From Oscillospiraceae bacterium (lineage in GTDB: Bacteria > Bacillota > Clostridia > Oscillospirales > Acutalibacteraceae): a stretch of DNA of 64,000 bases. Location of the stretch: the NCBI GenBank assembly GCA_015066465.1, contig SVOI01000004.1, positions 39,416-103,415 on the forward strand. Direction: 5' to 3'. The notes under the pieces are model-generated. The model did no database searches, had not been told where the DNA came from, and saw nothing but the letters and a program-made list of their open reading frames with translations. The position numbers and the translations under genes were made by a program. Within the stretch, counting starts at the first letter, position 1, and the number at the start of each line of letters is the position of its first letter. This document shows positions 3,052 to 26,302 of this stretch, piece by piece.

Positions 3052-3337
3052 TCTGTGCCCTCCTTTCAACTTTATTGTAGCAAAGACTACATTAAAAGTA
3101 TACAAACCGCTGGTTGAGTGGGGAGTTTTTTGTTATTCTCAACCAAAAGTCGATGTTAGATGTTAGTTTATAGAACAGACCTTTAGTCGCCCATTTATTT
3201 GTTATTATAATTATATCACAGAATAAAAAGTTTTACTATTCAATTACGTTTTTCACAAAAAAACATATTAAAATACTTGATTTTATAAAATGTATAATGT
3301 ATAATTCTATTGCTCAACAAGAGAAACATTTTAATAT

Positions 3338-3470
3338 CGAGATGTGGCTCAGTTTGGTAGCTTGAGTGTGACCGCCGCCTGTGGTGGATGAAGGGAACAC
3401 GAAAGGCGCCAGTGGTCAAAATTGTGCGAAGCGAAAAGCGAGCAAACAATTTTGGGTACCACAAGGGGTC
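3338..3470 (+). repeat. tRNA-Pro-headed structured repeat unit 1
   Basis: Begins with tRNA 5' half CGAGATGTGGCTCAGTTTGGTAG, then stems TGACCGC/GTGGTCA, CGCC/GGTG, AAAATTGT/ACAATTTT; homologous to unit 2. Confidence 0.75.
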
Positions 3471-3534
3471 ATTAAAATAAACTTTCTCATTTTGTGCACT
3501 TTCAAGCGTGTAACATTAATTTACAATTTAACAT

Positions 3535-3666
3535 CGGGGTGTGGCTCAGTTTGGTAGCTTGAGTGTGACCGCCGCCTGTGGCGGATGAAGGGAACACGAA
3601 AGGCGTCAGCGGTCAAAATTGTGCGAAGTGAGCAACGAGCAAACAATTTTGGGCACCGCAAGGGGT
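3535..3666 (+). repeat. tRNA-Pro-headed structured repeat unit 2
   Basis: Begins with CGGGGTGTGGCTCAGTTTGGTAG (identical to tRNA at 3731), then TGACCGC/GCGGTCA, CGCC/GGCG, AAAATTGT/ACAATTTT stems. Confidence 0.75.
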
Positions 3667-3730
3667 ATTTAAATAAACTTTCTAATTTAATGCACTTTCA
3701 AGCGTGCAACTTAAAACTAAAATTTAACAT

Positions 3731-3807
3731 CGGGGTGTGGCTCAGTTTGGTAGAGCGTCTGGTTCGGGACCAGAAGGTCGGGTGTTCGAATCACCTCACT
3801 CCGACCA
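3731..3807 (+). tRNA. tRNA-Pro(CGG)
   Basis: 77 nt cloverleaf incl. CCA; acceptor CGGGGTG/CACTCCG; anticodon arm TCTGG-TTCGGGA-CCAGA. Confidence 0.9.
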
Positions 3808-3930: not shown

Positions 3931-3994
3931 CGAGATGTGGCTCAATTTGGTAGAGCGTTGCGTTCGGGAAAACGCAGTCCGGACGGTTCGAGTA
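3931..3994 (+). pseudogene. tRNA-Pro pseudogene
   Basis: CGAGATGTGGCTCAATTTGGTAGAGCG intact 5' half; anticodon loop enlarged to TTCGGGAAAA (10 nt); T-arm and 3' acceptor strand lost. Confidence 0.75.
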
Positions 3995-4121: not shown

Positions 4122-4198
<77 letters not shown>

Positions 4199-4203
4199 AA
4201 AAC

Positions 4204-4240
4204 AAAGCGGATAGCGACAGCTATCCGTTTTGCTTTTTAT
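4204..4240 (+). terminator. Terminator of second tRNA-Pro
   Basis: GGATAGC-GACA-GCTATCC hairpin, T-rich tail. Confidence 0.75.
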
Positions 4241-20690: not shown

Positions 20691-20726
20691 CCCCAACTAT
20701 TTATTTCAATAGTCGGGGTTTTGTTT
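20691..20726. terminator. Bidirectional terminator
   Basis: CCCCAACTATT/AATAGTCGGGG (one mismatch) plus T-tail, convergent genes. Confidence 0.8.
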
Positions 20727-23700
20727 TACTCAAACTCTTCAAAAATATCCATTTTTTCTCTAATTTTTTCAATTTCTTCTTCACAGAGTCGTAATTTTTC
20801 AACATAAACATTGTTTTCAGTTTTTAAAAGTTCTTCAAGCTCGTCCTTTCTTTTTCTTGAACTACCGAGTTTTTCTTCAACCTCTGTCTGTACCCTGTTA
20901 AAACGCTTCAACAGATTTATCACTCGTTTAGCATTACCAATAGTTGATTCCCCCATCTCCACTAAAAATTGTTCTTTTTTACATTCAAGAAAAATATATG
21001 GTTTTTTCTCATTAACCACTTCGGGTAACACAATTTTAAATCCCAGAATAGTTACATTTTCTTCAAACGCAGTCTTTTTTATCACTACATCGTAAGTCAG
21101 AATATTTTCGATTTGGTGATAAGCATTTAAGAACTTTTCATTAGTAGTATTACGCAAAACTTTTACCAACTCTTTAACCTTAGCAAGACGATTTTCTGTT
21201 GAAATAATAGCTCCATCAAGCGAGTTAAACTCTTTTTCCATATCGTTTCTTACATCTTTTTCCTTTGCAATCAACACCCTTAAATTCTGTGCTTCATTTT
21301 CTTTTTCTGCAAGTTGCTTCATAAGAGGTTCTGACAATGCAAGTGCTTTTACTTCAGCATAGCTTAACACGCTATCTTCTAAATCAGATGCTGTACGCTG
21401 ATAAAGGCTGTCTGTTAAGAATTGTGAAATAAATCTTTGCTTTGTTTCTAATAACTGCCACGAATATGAATCAAAGCTACCCTCGGACACATATCTGTAA
21501 ATTAAAACATCTGTGTTTGTATTTCCCTTTCTTAAAATTCTACCTTCTCTCTGAACCATATCTGCAGGTCGCCACGGAACATCAAGATGGTGAATTGCCT
21601 TCAGCTTAACCTGAACATTAGCACCAACGCCAAGTTTAAATGTTGAGCCTAATAAAATACGAATTTCTCCATTATTGAATTTCTTGAACAACTCAACCTT
21701 ACGACTTTCAGTTTTGTAATTATGTATAAATGCAATCTCTTTTTTGGGAATGCCTTTTTCAACCAATTTATCGCGAAGTTCTGCATAAACACTAAAATCT
21801 TCTCCCTTAGGTGTAGAATAATCGCAAAATATCAATTGGGTTTCGTCAGAACTTTCTTTATATAGATTGTAAACATTCTCAACACATCTGAAAATTTTTG
21901 AATACTGGTTGTAAGGTTGTTCTTCACCCACAAGTTTAAGGTCAAGTGCAGCTTTTCTTCCATCAGTACTGACTTTAAGCATATTGTCGTGTTTTTTGTC
22001 AATTATCCCTGAGCGTATCAGTTCTGACCTTTCGCAAAGATTTTTCATATACCCTGCCAATTCAGGATATTTTTCAATAACCTCATCCTTATAACCACTG
22101 AATTCGGGTAATCCTTCAATGTTTGTATTCGCATAAAATATCGCTATTTGCGAGAATAATTTTGACAACTCTGGCAAATTAAAGAACTTGGCAAAACGAT
22201 AAACAAATCTGTATTGTGAAGCATTAACATCAATCTCACAAAATTGTTCAGGTAAAGCAAAGGTTTTAACCCAGTTATCAAACACATCTAACTTTCGTTC
22301 CTGTAATTGTTCATATTGTAAATACATCTGCATAGCATAAGCATCCGCAATTGAGTTACAAAGCGGTGTACCTGTGGCAAAAACAACTCCCCTGCCATCA
22401 TTTGCCTGCTGAACACATCTTACCTTATGCAATAAATCAAGGCATTTGTTTGAGCCCTTTGTATTTATTCCCCTCAAATTTCTCATCGAGGTTCTAATAG
22501 GCAAATTTTTATAATTGTGTGCCTCATCAAGAAACAATGTATTTATCTCAAGTTCATCAAATGATACTTCCGTATTATCAGTATTCATACAATTGATAAA
22601 ATCCTGTGTGAGTTTAACTATACGTTTTTTCTCCTGATTCAAAGGTGTATCCCAACCGTAAATATACCCCTGATGAGTTCGCATACTATTAAGTGTTGTT
22701 TCAATTCGCTTCAATTGAACATTCATATTGTCAAGAATAGAATCGACCGATAACGGAATCATCTCAAAACAACTGTAAGCTATAATTATTCCGTCATAAT
22801 CGCCATCACGAATCTGAGTAAGCACCTTAGTGCGCATTTCAGGTTTAAACATTTTGGGTTCAATTGCAAGAATCTTTGATGTTGGATATAATTCAGAAAA
22901 AATTTTTTCCCACTGACCAACAATGTGGTTCGGAACCACAAACATATTTTTTCTTGAAATCCCCTCCTGGCGCATTTTCATAGCGGCTGCTATCATAATA
23001 TAAGTTTTACCCGCACCTACATCAAATGCTAACAAAGTATTATTACCGCTAATTATTTTCTGCACCGCATCTTTTTGATAAGGATACAATGTAAATTTCT
23101 CTGACATATTTGGAAAAGATAATTTACTACCATCAAAGCTTGGTTTTTCAAGATTTGAAAACATTTTATTGTACGCTTCTTCTACCTCCCATATTCTGTC
23201 TTCATCTTGCCATATCCATTTTTTAAACTCATCTTTTATGAGTTTTTGTTTTTCTATAGCAGCAACAGTGTTTTTCTCATCATATTTATTGTTTTTATCG
23301 TGAAGCCTTATTTCTCTTAAATTCAATGTAGCTTCAATTATATAAAGAGCATTGTACTGTTTTATACCATATTTAACCTCTGCATTAGTATTATTATAAC
23401 CCAGAGCTCTTTTACTTGGTATCGACCAACTACCTGTAATTTCTTCATATTCTACATAACACGGCTTAAAAAAACGATTATCATTAACAGTTGGAGTTCT
23501 ATCTAAAATATGATAAATAAAATCATTGATTATATCTTTACTTACCCATGGAACGCCTAAAGAAACCTCAATATCTGTGTAAGGTATCTCATGCATTACT
23601 CGTTTTTCAACAGTTTTTTCAAATAGTTTGTTTTTATGTTCCTTTACTAACGTCGCTTTTTTATATATTTCTATCCATTTATCTAAAGTAAATTCAGAAA

Positions 23701-24322
23701 GGTCGTTTTCTGATAATACATCTACAATTTCCTCTGTTGGAAACTCATCTTCTTCACGGTTGTTTGAATAAATACTGTAATCCTTAGCATCGTACACTGA
23801 ATAATCTCTATGCATAAGTTGGTTTGCAATTTGTTTTCCTAACAATTCACCATCAACTATTGCGGCCAATCTGTCAGCTATATAACCTTTTTCTTTTTGC
23901 GCGTATACTGGCATATTATTTTGTATCAATAGGTTTTTCAATTCAAGTTTCCAAAGAATAGACAATTGCCTTCTTCTTGATACACTTTTATTTATTATAG
24001 CTTTGCGTATAATTTCCACATCAGTTTCTTTAATACAAATTATTCCCCAACTTGATGGTATTTTGCCTGCCGCAGACTCAGAATGCTTTTCACCCACAAC
24101 AATATAATTTTCATCAAAAAACAGATTATATGCCTTTACTTGCTCCTGTAACCTACTATAGTTATCTAAATCACTTTTTATCTCAAAGCCCATAAGCCTG
24201 TCCGTTACAGCCATAACATCACAAATAGATGAACCAATGCTTTTTTCCTGATATATTCTTACTTCAGAATAAGTCGCCTGTAAGTACGAAACAAGAATTG
24301 ACTTTATATTTTTTGCATTCAT
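20726..24322 (-). CDS. SNF2-type SF2 helicase with N-terminal PD-(D/E)XK-like domain
   Basis: N-term FEIKSDLDNYSRLQEQVKAYN; LLAFDVGAGKTYIMIAAAMKM; LFLDEAHNYKN; VQREGRILRKGN. Confidence 0.8.
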   Translation of the reverse strand: MNAKNIKSILVSYLQATYSEVRIYQEKSIGSSICDVMAVTDRLMGFEIKSDLDNYSRLQEQVKAYNLFFDENYIVVGEKHSESAAGKIPSSWGIICIKETDVEIIRKAIINKSVSRRRQLSILWKLELKNLLIQNNMPVYAQKEKGYIADRLAAIVDGELLGKQIANQLMHRDYSVYDAKDYSIYSNNREEDEFPTEEIVDVLSENDLSEFTLDKWIEIYKKATLVKEHKNKLFEKTVEKRVMHEIPYTDIEVSLGVPWVSKDIINDFIYHILDRTPTVNDNRFFKPCYVEYEEITGSWSIPSKRALGYNNTNAEVKYGIKQYNALYIIEATLNLREIRLHDKNNKYDEKNTVAAIEKQKLIKDEFKKWIWQDEDRIWEVEEAYNKMFSNLEKPSFDGSKLSFPNMSEKFTLYPYQKDAVQKIISGNNTLLAFDVGAGKTYIMIAAAMKMRQEGISRKNMFVVPNHIVGQWEKIFSELYPTSKILAIEPKMFKPEMRTKVLTQIRDGDYDGIIIAYSCFEMIPLSVDSILDNMNVQLKRIETTLNSMRTHQGYIYGWDTPLNQEKKRIVKLTQDFINCMNTDNTEVSFDELEINTLFLDEAHNYKNLPIRTSMRNLRGINTKGSNKCLDLLHKVRCVQQANDGRGVVFATGTPLCNSIADAYAMQMYLQYEQLQERKLDVFDNWVKTFALPEQFCEIDVNASQYRFVYRFAKFFNLPELSKLFSQIAIFYANTNIEGLPEFSGYKDEVIEKYPELAGYMKNLCERSELIRSGIIDKKHDNMLKVSTDGRKAALDLKLVGEEQPYNQYSKIFRCVENVYNLYKESSDETQLIFCDYSTPKGEDFSVYAELRDKLVEKGIPKKEIAFIHNYKTESRKVELFKKFNNGEIRILLGSTFKLGVGANVQVKLKAIHHLDVPWRPADMVQREGRILRKGNTNTDVLIYRYVSEGSFDSYSWQLLETKQRFISQFLTDSLYQRTASDLEDSVLSYAEVKALALSEPLMKQLAEKENEAQNLRVLIAKEKDVRNDMEKEFNSLDGAIISTENRLAKVKELVKVLRNTTNEKFLNAYHQIENILTYDVVIKKTAFEENVTILGFKIVLPEVVNEKKPYIFLECKKEQFLVEMGESTIGNAKRVINLLKRFNRVQTEVEEKLGSSRKRKDELEELLKTENNVYVEKLRLCEEEIEKIREKMDIFEEFE

Positions 24323-25237: not shown

Positions 25238-26302
25238 TCAATCAAATACAGCTTTCTCTGCAAGCTCTTTGGCTTTAGTTCTGAACCAGGCGTTATCTGG
25301 TTCAATCTGCAAAACATAATTCACACGACCTATGAGCGAATCCTGATATTTCATACTGTCTGCAATTTCAACACCATTTTCAACGGTGATAAAATTTTTG
25401 TTATCACTTTTAATTATTGCATCTTCAAACCCAAATTTCAAAGCATAATAAATTTCCTGACGGAGTTTTCGTTTGTAATCCTTTGAAACATTTACCTTTT
25501 CATTAACTGTAAGACCTGTAACACTCTGTCTGTTACCACTTGAAACAAATACTGTTTTATTTTCATTCAGGTCAAAACCATTTTTATCTAACACATTCTT
25601 CACTTTTTTATATACATCTAAAAGTGGTCTGTCCCCTGAAAAAGTCATATCATCACAATAACGGGTGTAGGTTACGCCTCTTTTTTTACACCACTCACCA
25701 ATGTAATCATCAAAGCTTTTCAATACAAGATTTGACAATGCCGGTGAGGTTGGTGCCCCTTGTGGCAAAAAACCATTTTTACAACAAAGTTTTGTAAGCA
25801 TATATGAAATCTGTTTTGGATAATACTTAATGAACACAAAGCGATAAACAGTTAAAAAGTCAATACTGTTAAAAAAATCTGTGATATCTAATTTCAACAA
25901 ATATTTTTTGTTTGTATGCGGTGAAGCATTACTGTAAAGTGTAGCACCTTTTTTATAAGCGGTTGCATACTCTGAAACGGGAATTTTATTAAGAATTCTT
26001 CTGAGAATTATTCGCTGAATTCGTTTCAGTTGCTTACCGGGAACAAGAAGCATTCTGTCGTTACCATTTTTCTTTTTTATTGTTACATAGCTATATGTTT
26101 TATCACAATTACGCACCGCTCTGTAAACCTGCTTATTGCTGATATCTAAAAATTGTGATAGCTGAAAAGTATCATAAATAAATGGTACAGAATTTTTCTT
26201 TTTATAATCCAGAATCATTTCTGTTGCCGCTATAAGACCGAACTTTTTCACAAAAGCCATATCAGAATTCTGGAATTTTATGCTTTGACCGTTGATAAAC
26301 AT
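25238..26302 (-). CDS. Retron-type reverse transcriptase
   Basis: NASPH (NAxxH), LLKLDITDFFNSI, QGAPTSPALSNL, YCDDMTFSG, SVTGLTVN (VTG). Confidence 0.92.
   Translation of the reverse strand: MFINGQSIKFQNSDMAFVKKFGLIAATEMILDYKKKNSVPFIYDTFQLSQFLDISNKQVYRAVRNCDKTYSYVTIKKKNGNDRMLLVPGKQLKRIQRIILRRILNKIPVSEYATAYKKGATLYSNASPHTNKKYLLKLDITDFFNSIDFLTVYRFVFIKYYPKQISYMLTKLCCKNGFLPQGAPTSPALSNLVLKSFDDYIGEWCKKRGVTYTRYCDDMTFSGDRPLLDVYKKVKNVLDKNGFDLNENKTVFVSSGNRQSVTGLTVNEKVNVSKDYKRKLRQEIYYALKFGFEDAIIKSDNKNFITVENGVEIADSMKYQDSLIGRVNYVLQIEPDNAWFRTKAKELAEKAVFD

Follow-up and report, generated by a model that had tools for sequence, protein, structure and literature searches.

The window, a 64,000-nucleotide stretch of a contig from an Oscillospiraceae bacterium, holds two tandem units (3338-3534 and 3535-3730; period 197, 90% identity) preceded by a promoter-like site and followed by an intact tRNA-Pro(CGG) gene, a degraded tRNA-Pro copy, a second tRNA-Pro(CGG) gene and a terminator-like hairpin (Table 1). 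A preliminary description of this DNA had reported a pair of repeats headed by a tRNA-Pro 5′ half, and this layout is confirmed: each unit starts with 23 nt of the tRNA-Pro 5′ half, continues into a structured core of ~108 nt and ends in an AT-rich tail. The tail motif that it had described as shared, TTTCAAGCG, was also found again in copies of the genus. The first intact tRNA-Pro carries a third head, identical to that of unit 2 over 32 nt. Neither unit was called as a tRNA with a complete cloverleaf by ARAGORN or Rfam. A pattern for the 3′ domain of the core matched the window twice and gave no match in 100 shuffles. At the tRNA-Pro loci of related genomes, promoter-like sites resembling that of the window occur whether units are present or absent.

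Table 1. Features of the tRNA-Pro locus, in window coordinates
Feature	Position	Strand	Remark
Sigma-70-type promoter-like site, TTGATT-17-TATAAT	3277..3305	+	consensus match; count not above shuffle expectation
Unit 1 head, tRNA-Pro nt 1-23, CGAGATG type	3338..3360	+	
Core copy 1 (type 1, end CACAAGGGG)	3361..3468	+	model R1 match 3354-3471
Unit 1 tail, AT-rich, with GCACTTTCAAGCGTG motif	3469..3534	+	
Unit 2 head, tRNA-Pro nt 1-23, CGGGGTG type	3535..3557	+	same as downstream tRNA-Pro head
Core copy 2	3558..3665	+	model R1 match 3551-3668
Unit 2 tail, with TTTCAAGCGTG motif	3666..3730	+	
tRNA-Pro(CGG), intact	3731..3807	+	read as the "empty site" of unit 2
Degraded tRNA-Pro copy without core	3931..3993	+	similar degraded copies in related genomes
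Second tRNA-Pro(CGG), intact	4122..4198	+	CGAGATG type, like unit 1 head
Intrinsic-terminator-like hairpin	4203..4232	+	end of presumed transcription unit

Two further features of the window were recorded. The degraded tRNA-Pro copy and its counterparts in several species (L184, L185, L188, L191) lie between promoter and intact tRNA and have a conserved tail, GTTCGGGAAAACGCAGT..GGTTCGAGTAAAAAAC; they are perhaps the mark of a different tRNA-targeting element. At a distance from the locus, positions 25238-26302 of the minus strand encode a 354-aa protein with a reverse transcriptase (RT) domain (RVT_1 match in the genome search), adjoining VWA/MoxR-ATPase-like ORFs and a large helicase-like ORF (20726-24322), a region that is possibly a mobile or defence island.

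Size and spread of the family

Using unit 2 as a query against 40 related genomes, we obtained matches in 26, several of them multicopy. Many of these copies lie at contig ends, in keeping with a dispersed multicopy family. All genomes were drafts, mostly metagenome-derived. A strict pattern for the 3′ domain identified at least 117 loci in named genomes, and the matches listed were all labelled Clostridia, Oscillospiraceae, Ruminococcus, Lachnospiraceae and similar, mostly from animal guts; in a viral collection, three contigs were among the matches listed. The 145 distinct copies that we extracted and analyzed over-represent one form of the 3′ domain, those outside the strict pattern being partially sampled. 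With a covariance model built from 93 copies, the family was detected in 26 of the 40 relatives, with 0 to 17 copies per genome, and in 19 of 147 genomes across the class (E 1e-12).

For the sequences searched against Rfam 15 (4227 families, both thresholds), only tRNA reached the gathering score, all other matches being of chance level, and annotated phage and plasmid record collections contained no match to the family. The open literature yielded no equivalent at the level of named families, beside which PMC8040213 has thousands of unnamed candidate RNA motifs, and known cellular self-cleaving ribozymes were judged by eye. The family is a structured element, abundant and class-wide, that has escaped both RNA databases and gene annotation. 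Its genomes are common in animal guts, its copies break assemblies, and it accounts for the recurrent "pseudo-tRNA" units that precede tRNA genes. It also raises the question of what puts a folded sequence of 108 nt into tRNA loops while leaving the tRNA unharmed, and whether this happens as RNA or as single-stranded DNA.

Core structure

Folding of the single units against shuffled sequences revealed no unusual stability (z = -0.47 and -1.13), so that the structure rests on comparison, where the evidence is very strong. Over the 93 aligned copies, 95.9% of the cells at 25 pairs are paired and double changes occur at 14 of the 25; the covariation score is 0.425, against 0.114 for shuffled alignments (0 of 500 as high) and at most 0.100 for slid versions. 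Given that part of the 3′ domain was preset by the search pattern, the independent evidence comes from the 5′ arm, the apical pairs and two further pairs. One of these, a purine-pyrimidine pair at columns 69/111, is A-U in 53 copies and G-C in 40, with no mismatch; the other, at columns 59/123 and outside the search pattern, is C-G in 48, G-C in 34, U-A in 7 and A-U in 1, with 3 exceptions.

In the 5′ arm, a helix with hardly any sequence constraint leads through a 5′GA/GA3′ step to two pairs (CC/GG or GC/GC) and a hairpin, after which comes ATNAA; the 3′ arm is a hairpin with a C/GGGN internal loop. A further pair that joins the arms occurs in all four Watson-Crick forms, and the non-helical positions GA/GA, ATNAA and GGGN are conserved. 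The ends of the core, GGGG... and ...CAA[G/C]AGG, show no complementarity to each other in alignment A1. Three stems had been proposed from the two units of the window, of which CGCC/GGYG and AAAATTGT/ACAATTTT are supported by the alignment. The third, TGACCGC/GYGGTCA, had to be replaced, and a pseudoknot built on it was rejected as well, since the same bases covary with other partners: GYGGT pairs with a downstream ACCRC (columns 64/119: 87 C-G, 5 U-A), and the bases that follow the first GA have their partners in the G[G/C] before the second GA (columns 20/43: 57 G-C, 28 C-G, 5 A-U).

Direct comparison of units 1 and 2 shows two compensatory Watson-Crick changes, in GYGGT/ACCRC and in the apical stem, together with one change from G-C to G.U at columns 25/34 and loop changes; the G.U of the window is the only one at this position among the 93 copies. 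Changes from G-C to G.U had been taken to preserve pairing and to hint at selection on RNA. Maintenance of pairing has strong support, as further copies with broken stems were sought and 93 copies withstood this search, but the argument from wobble is weak, G.U making up 19 of about 2230 cells (<1%) in core pairs, compared with 101 of 1167 (8.7%) in the acceptor and T stems of tRNAs at the same loci. Watson-Crick covariation, not wobble, is the rule for core pairs. Such a rarity of G.U is unusual for an RNA and suggestive enough to leave room for a single-stranded DNA form; a constraint on single-stranded DNA or DNA hairpins would explain equally well what had been ascribed to selection on RNA.

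Insertion sites and duplicated heads

An intact tRNA lies within 400 bp of 76 of the 145 copies, and 75 of these 76 stand in tRNA sense. Among labelled copies in the D-loop (Ser, Leu, Pro), 44 lie upstream of the intact tRNA and 2 downstream of it, while all 10 labelled 3′-half copies lie downstream. The heads of D-loop copies run from tRNA nt 1 to nt 18 in Ser, nt 22 in Leu and nt 23 in Pro, and the copies repeat with a period near 150-206. Tandem tRNA-headed units are not peculiar to the window and recur in many other genomes, but the name suits only part of the family: about half of the copies are tRNA-distant, and the idea that every copy sits beside a tRNA does not hold. The tRNA-distant copies occupy hairpins or the ends of genes and are rarely found ahead of a gene.

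The tRNA-sense orientation would suit a functional small RNA co-transcribed with the tRNA genes, with a 5′ half that sets the position of the promoter and supplies signals for processing, and a core that is active as a regulator, a decoy or a protein-binding RNA. The promoter-like site before unit 1, the terminator-like hairpin after the second tRNA-Pro, the conserved non-helical positions and the existence of context-specific lineages are all in line with such a role. However, the tRNA-distant half shows no preferred orientation relative to the gene upstream (20 against 18) and keeps away from gene-upstream sites, genomes of one genus carry anywhere from 0 to 17 copies, and G.U pairs are rare for an RNA, which makes this explanation an unlikely one, though the best placed of those that we weigh against mobility.

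In the window's genus, cores are also hosted by a second hairpin repeat, with the layout head-core-tail-head-rest and the head duplicated. Within the same genome, what comes after this hairpin repeat is either GGGGGACC (empty) or GGGG-core with a duplicated head (filled). This second repeat (L203-L220, e.g., L204, L205, L212) consists of a hairpin and then GGGGACC ... AAGCGTG ... GGTGGAGGGTCCC. The tRNA-derived head comes from the insertion site and not from the element.

tRNA genes are classical att sites, where integration usually takes place at the 3′ end of the tRNA. One could accordingly see the loci as scars of tRNA-targeting integrative elements or prophages, the heads being att duplications and the cores leftover att or end sequences, a view to which the degraded tRNA copies, the displaced heads that match another tRNA (unit 1 of the window compared with tRNA 1; L187-L189) and the presence of the element on phage contigs lend some weight. 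It is weakened by the non-tRNA hairpins, which hold the same core with the same head-duplication layout. Moreover, four-way covariation of a paired structure is unexpected for the arm sites of tyrosine recombinases, and D-loop copies duplicate the 5′ side, unlike the usual 3′-end integrations, so that we regard such scars as improbable. The inverted anticodon-arm sequence in the left flank of several 3′-half copies (L019, L103, L105, L133, L138), the foldback right flanks of Ser D-loop copies (e.g., L040, L059) and the very low G.U would agree with template switching in replication and gene conversion, which, with no dedicated mobility, would spread hairpin-rich repeats and keep palindromes (tandem heads, foldbacks, perfect stems), but neither the conservation of one architecture, with its conserved unpaired motifs, in many families of the class nor the dispersal to unrelated sites is explained, and we give this account an equally slim chance.

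A general closing helix between the flanks was not found, mean complementarity being no different from that of mispaired flanks; at -20 kcal/mol or below there are 13 copies against 5.7 expected, an excess confined to the strongest tail. Some copies depart from the common form. In one subfamily (L183 (G008:C6), L184, L186-L190), the 5′ arm and the closing pair are kept and the 3′ hairpin is unrelated (GGCGCAACAA..TGTTGCAACAGG), with up to 4 tandem units preceding tRNA-Pro(TGG). Two copies, L144 near 7044 and L135 near 4476, are exceptional, one lying between direct repeats of antisense tRNA-Arg sequence and the other having part of its 5′ end repeated after it.

Proposed mobility and known systems

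Heads are 92-96% identical to the resident tRNA (27 of 44 exact) and 76-85% identical to tRNAs of other loci, and cores of the same class share only 62-78% identity. Heads thus match the resident tRNA better than cores match each other, which favors repeated insertion. They would be copied anew from the target with every insertion, or converted later; renewal is the simpler of the two because the homology spans just ~20-30 nt. Genome G005 has a plain promoter-tRNA-Pro arrangement, and several other species of the genus carry 1-4 units at tRNA-Pro loci. Nearest neighbors share their context in 52 of 82 cases, against 20 by chance, and related elements tend toward the same kind of site; in addition, L002 and L031 have near-identical flanks in two species, so that vertical descent accounts for part of the distribution. 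Between strains, neither transposition nor insertion polymorphism was seen in the draft-genome set.

Based on the family, its structure, its sites and the duplications described above, with the excess of strongly complementary flanks and the occurrence on two phage contigs also in favor, we infer mobility, and consider it probable that these copies constitute a new family of small, non-autonomous, mobile structured element. According to this model, a core of ~108-118 nt would fold into two arms, the GA/GA-step helix and hairpin and the C/GGGN hairpin, and would insert next to GG within the loops of DNA or RNA that forms hairpins, namely the D-loop, anticodon/variable region and T-loop of tRNA and the second, genus-specific hairpin repeat. 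In tRNA genes, only duplication of the short side of the gene would leave a working tRNA. Such a selection filter, by which an insertion would be kept only where the duplicated segment makes the gene whole again, would yield head-core-tail-intact tRNA in the D-loop and intact tRNA-core-3′ half elsewhere. Tandem units, as in the window, may have arisen by repeated insertion or by unequal recombination between heads.

We then looked for candidate mobilizers. RT, Y1 transposase, TnpB and IS110 recombinase genes were not detected in the copy-rich genomes G002, G008 and G017 (76%, 95% and 84% complete, respectively), nor did these genes correlate with copy number. RT genes occur in 9 of the 40 genomes, including G000 and G005 and excluding G002, G008, G017 and G020. 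In a test for IS200/IS605, no Y1 transposase was found in G002, G005, G008 or G017, past supply in trans being possible; in a test for bridge or seek RNA, the IS110 DEDD recombinase was absent from G002, G005, G006, G008 and G017; and PF07282 (TnpB-type) matched 3 of the 40 genomes, none of them copy-rich. No recurrent neighbor that could be an autonomous partner was found among 643 ORFs around copies, the largest clusters overlapping the element itself and the others being few and mixed, including serine recombinases at 5 loci. No split element with an internal gene was present in 15 genomes. A bolder proposal, which we advance tentatively and hold to be doubtful, is that of a structure-guided bacterial element with a new mode of movement, which would recognize folded loops (tRNA D-, anticodon- and T-loops), insert beside GG in one orientation and duplicate the tRNA end beyond the insertion point, without RT, Y1, TnpB or IS110.

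Among known systems, the element would work most like the double-hairpin elements (DHE) of fungal and other mitochondrial genomes, which we propose as an analogy and not as a homology. DHE (Paquin et al. 2000, cited in PMC4618339; PMC2800124) are short, dispersed pairs of adjacent hairpins with no encoded enzyme, regarded as mobile and reported inside structured-RNA genes. Our element likewise has two adjacent hairpins and is multicopy and dispersed; it differs in being bacterial and longer, with a fixed architecture, conserved unpaired motifs and head duplications at tRNA genes.

Three other comparisons were rejected. Like the IscB omega RNA HEARO (RF02033; PMC9755519), the element would be a structured RNA in dispersed copies, with a 5′ flank that derives from the target, as does the IscB guide; however, the windows searched contained no RF02033 match, no nuclease gene such as a linked RuvC-HNH ORF stood beside its copies, and TnpB-type genes were absent from copy-rich genomes, in a search that covered the family PF07282. 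REP sequences, stem-loop families and MITEs (PMC2267715, PMC2229807) are similarly small, non-coding, intergenic, multicopy and able to form stem-loops, but our element resides in tRNA-gene loops and lacks terminal inverted repeats; with ends that are not complementary and clear duplications that are heads of 18-32 bp instead of short fixed ones, it is not a DDE-type MITE. As in a SINE, a tRNA 5′ half is fused to a structured body in many copies; a SINE-like retroelement is nevertheless set aside, as the tRNA part comes from each target site and is absent in dispersed copies, and the mobile unit does not carry it. RT presence among the genomes, for its part, does not follow copy number.

On two viral contigs, the element lies just upstream of a phage terminase large-subunit gene (L150, 6297-6351; L151, 1911-1965), and carriage on these phage contigs is a possible route between cells.
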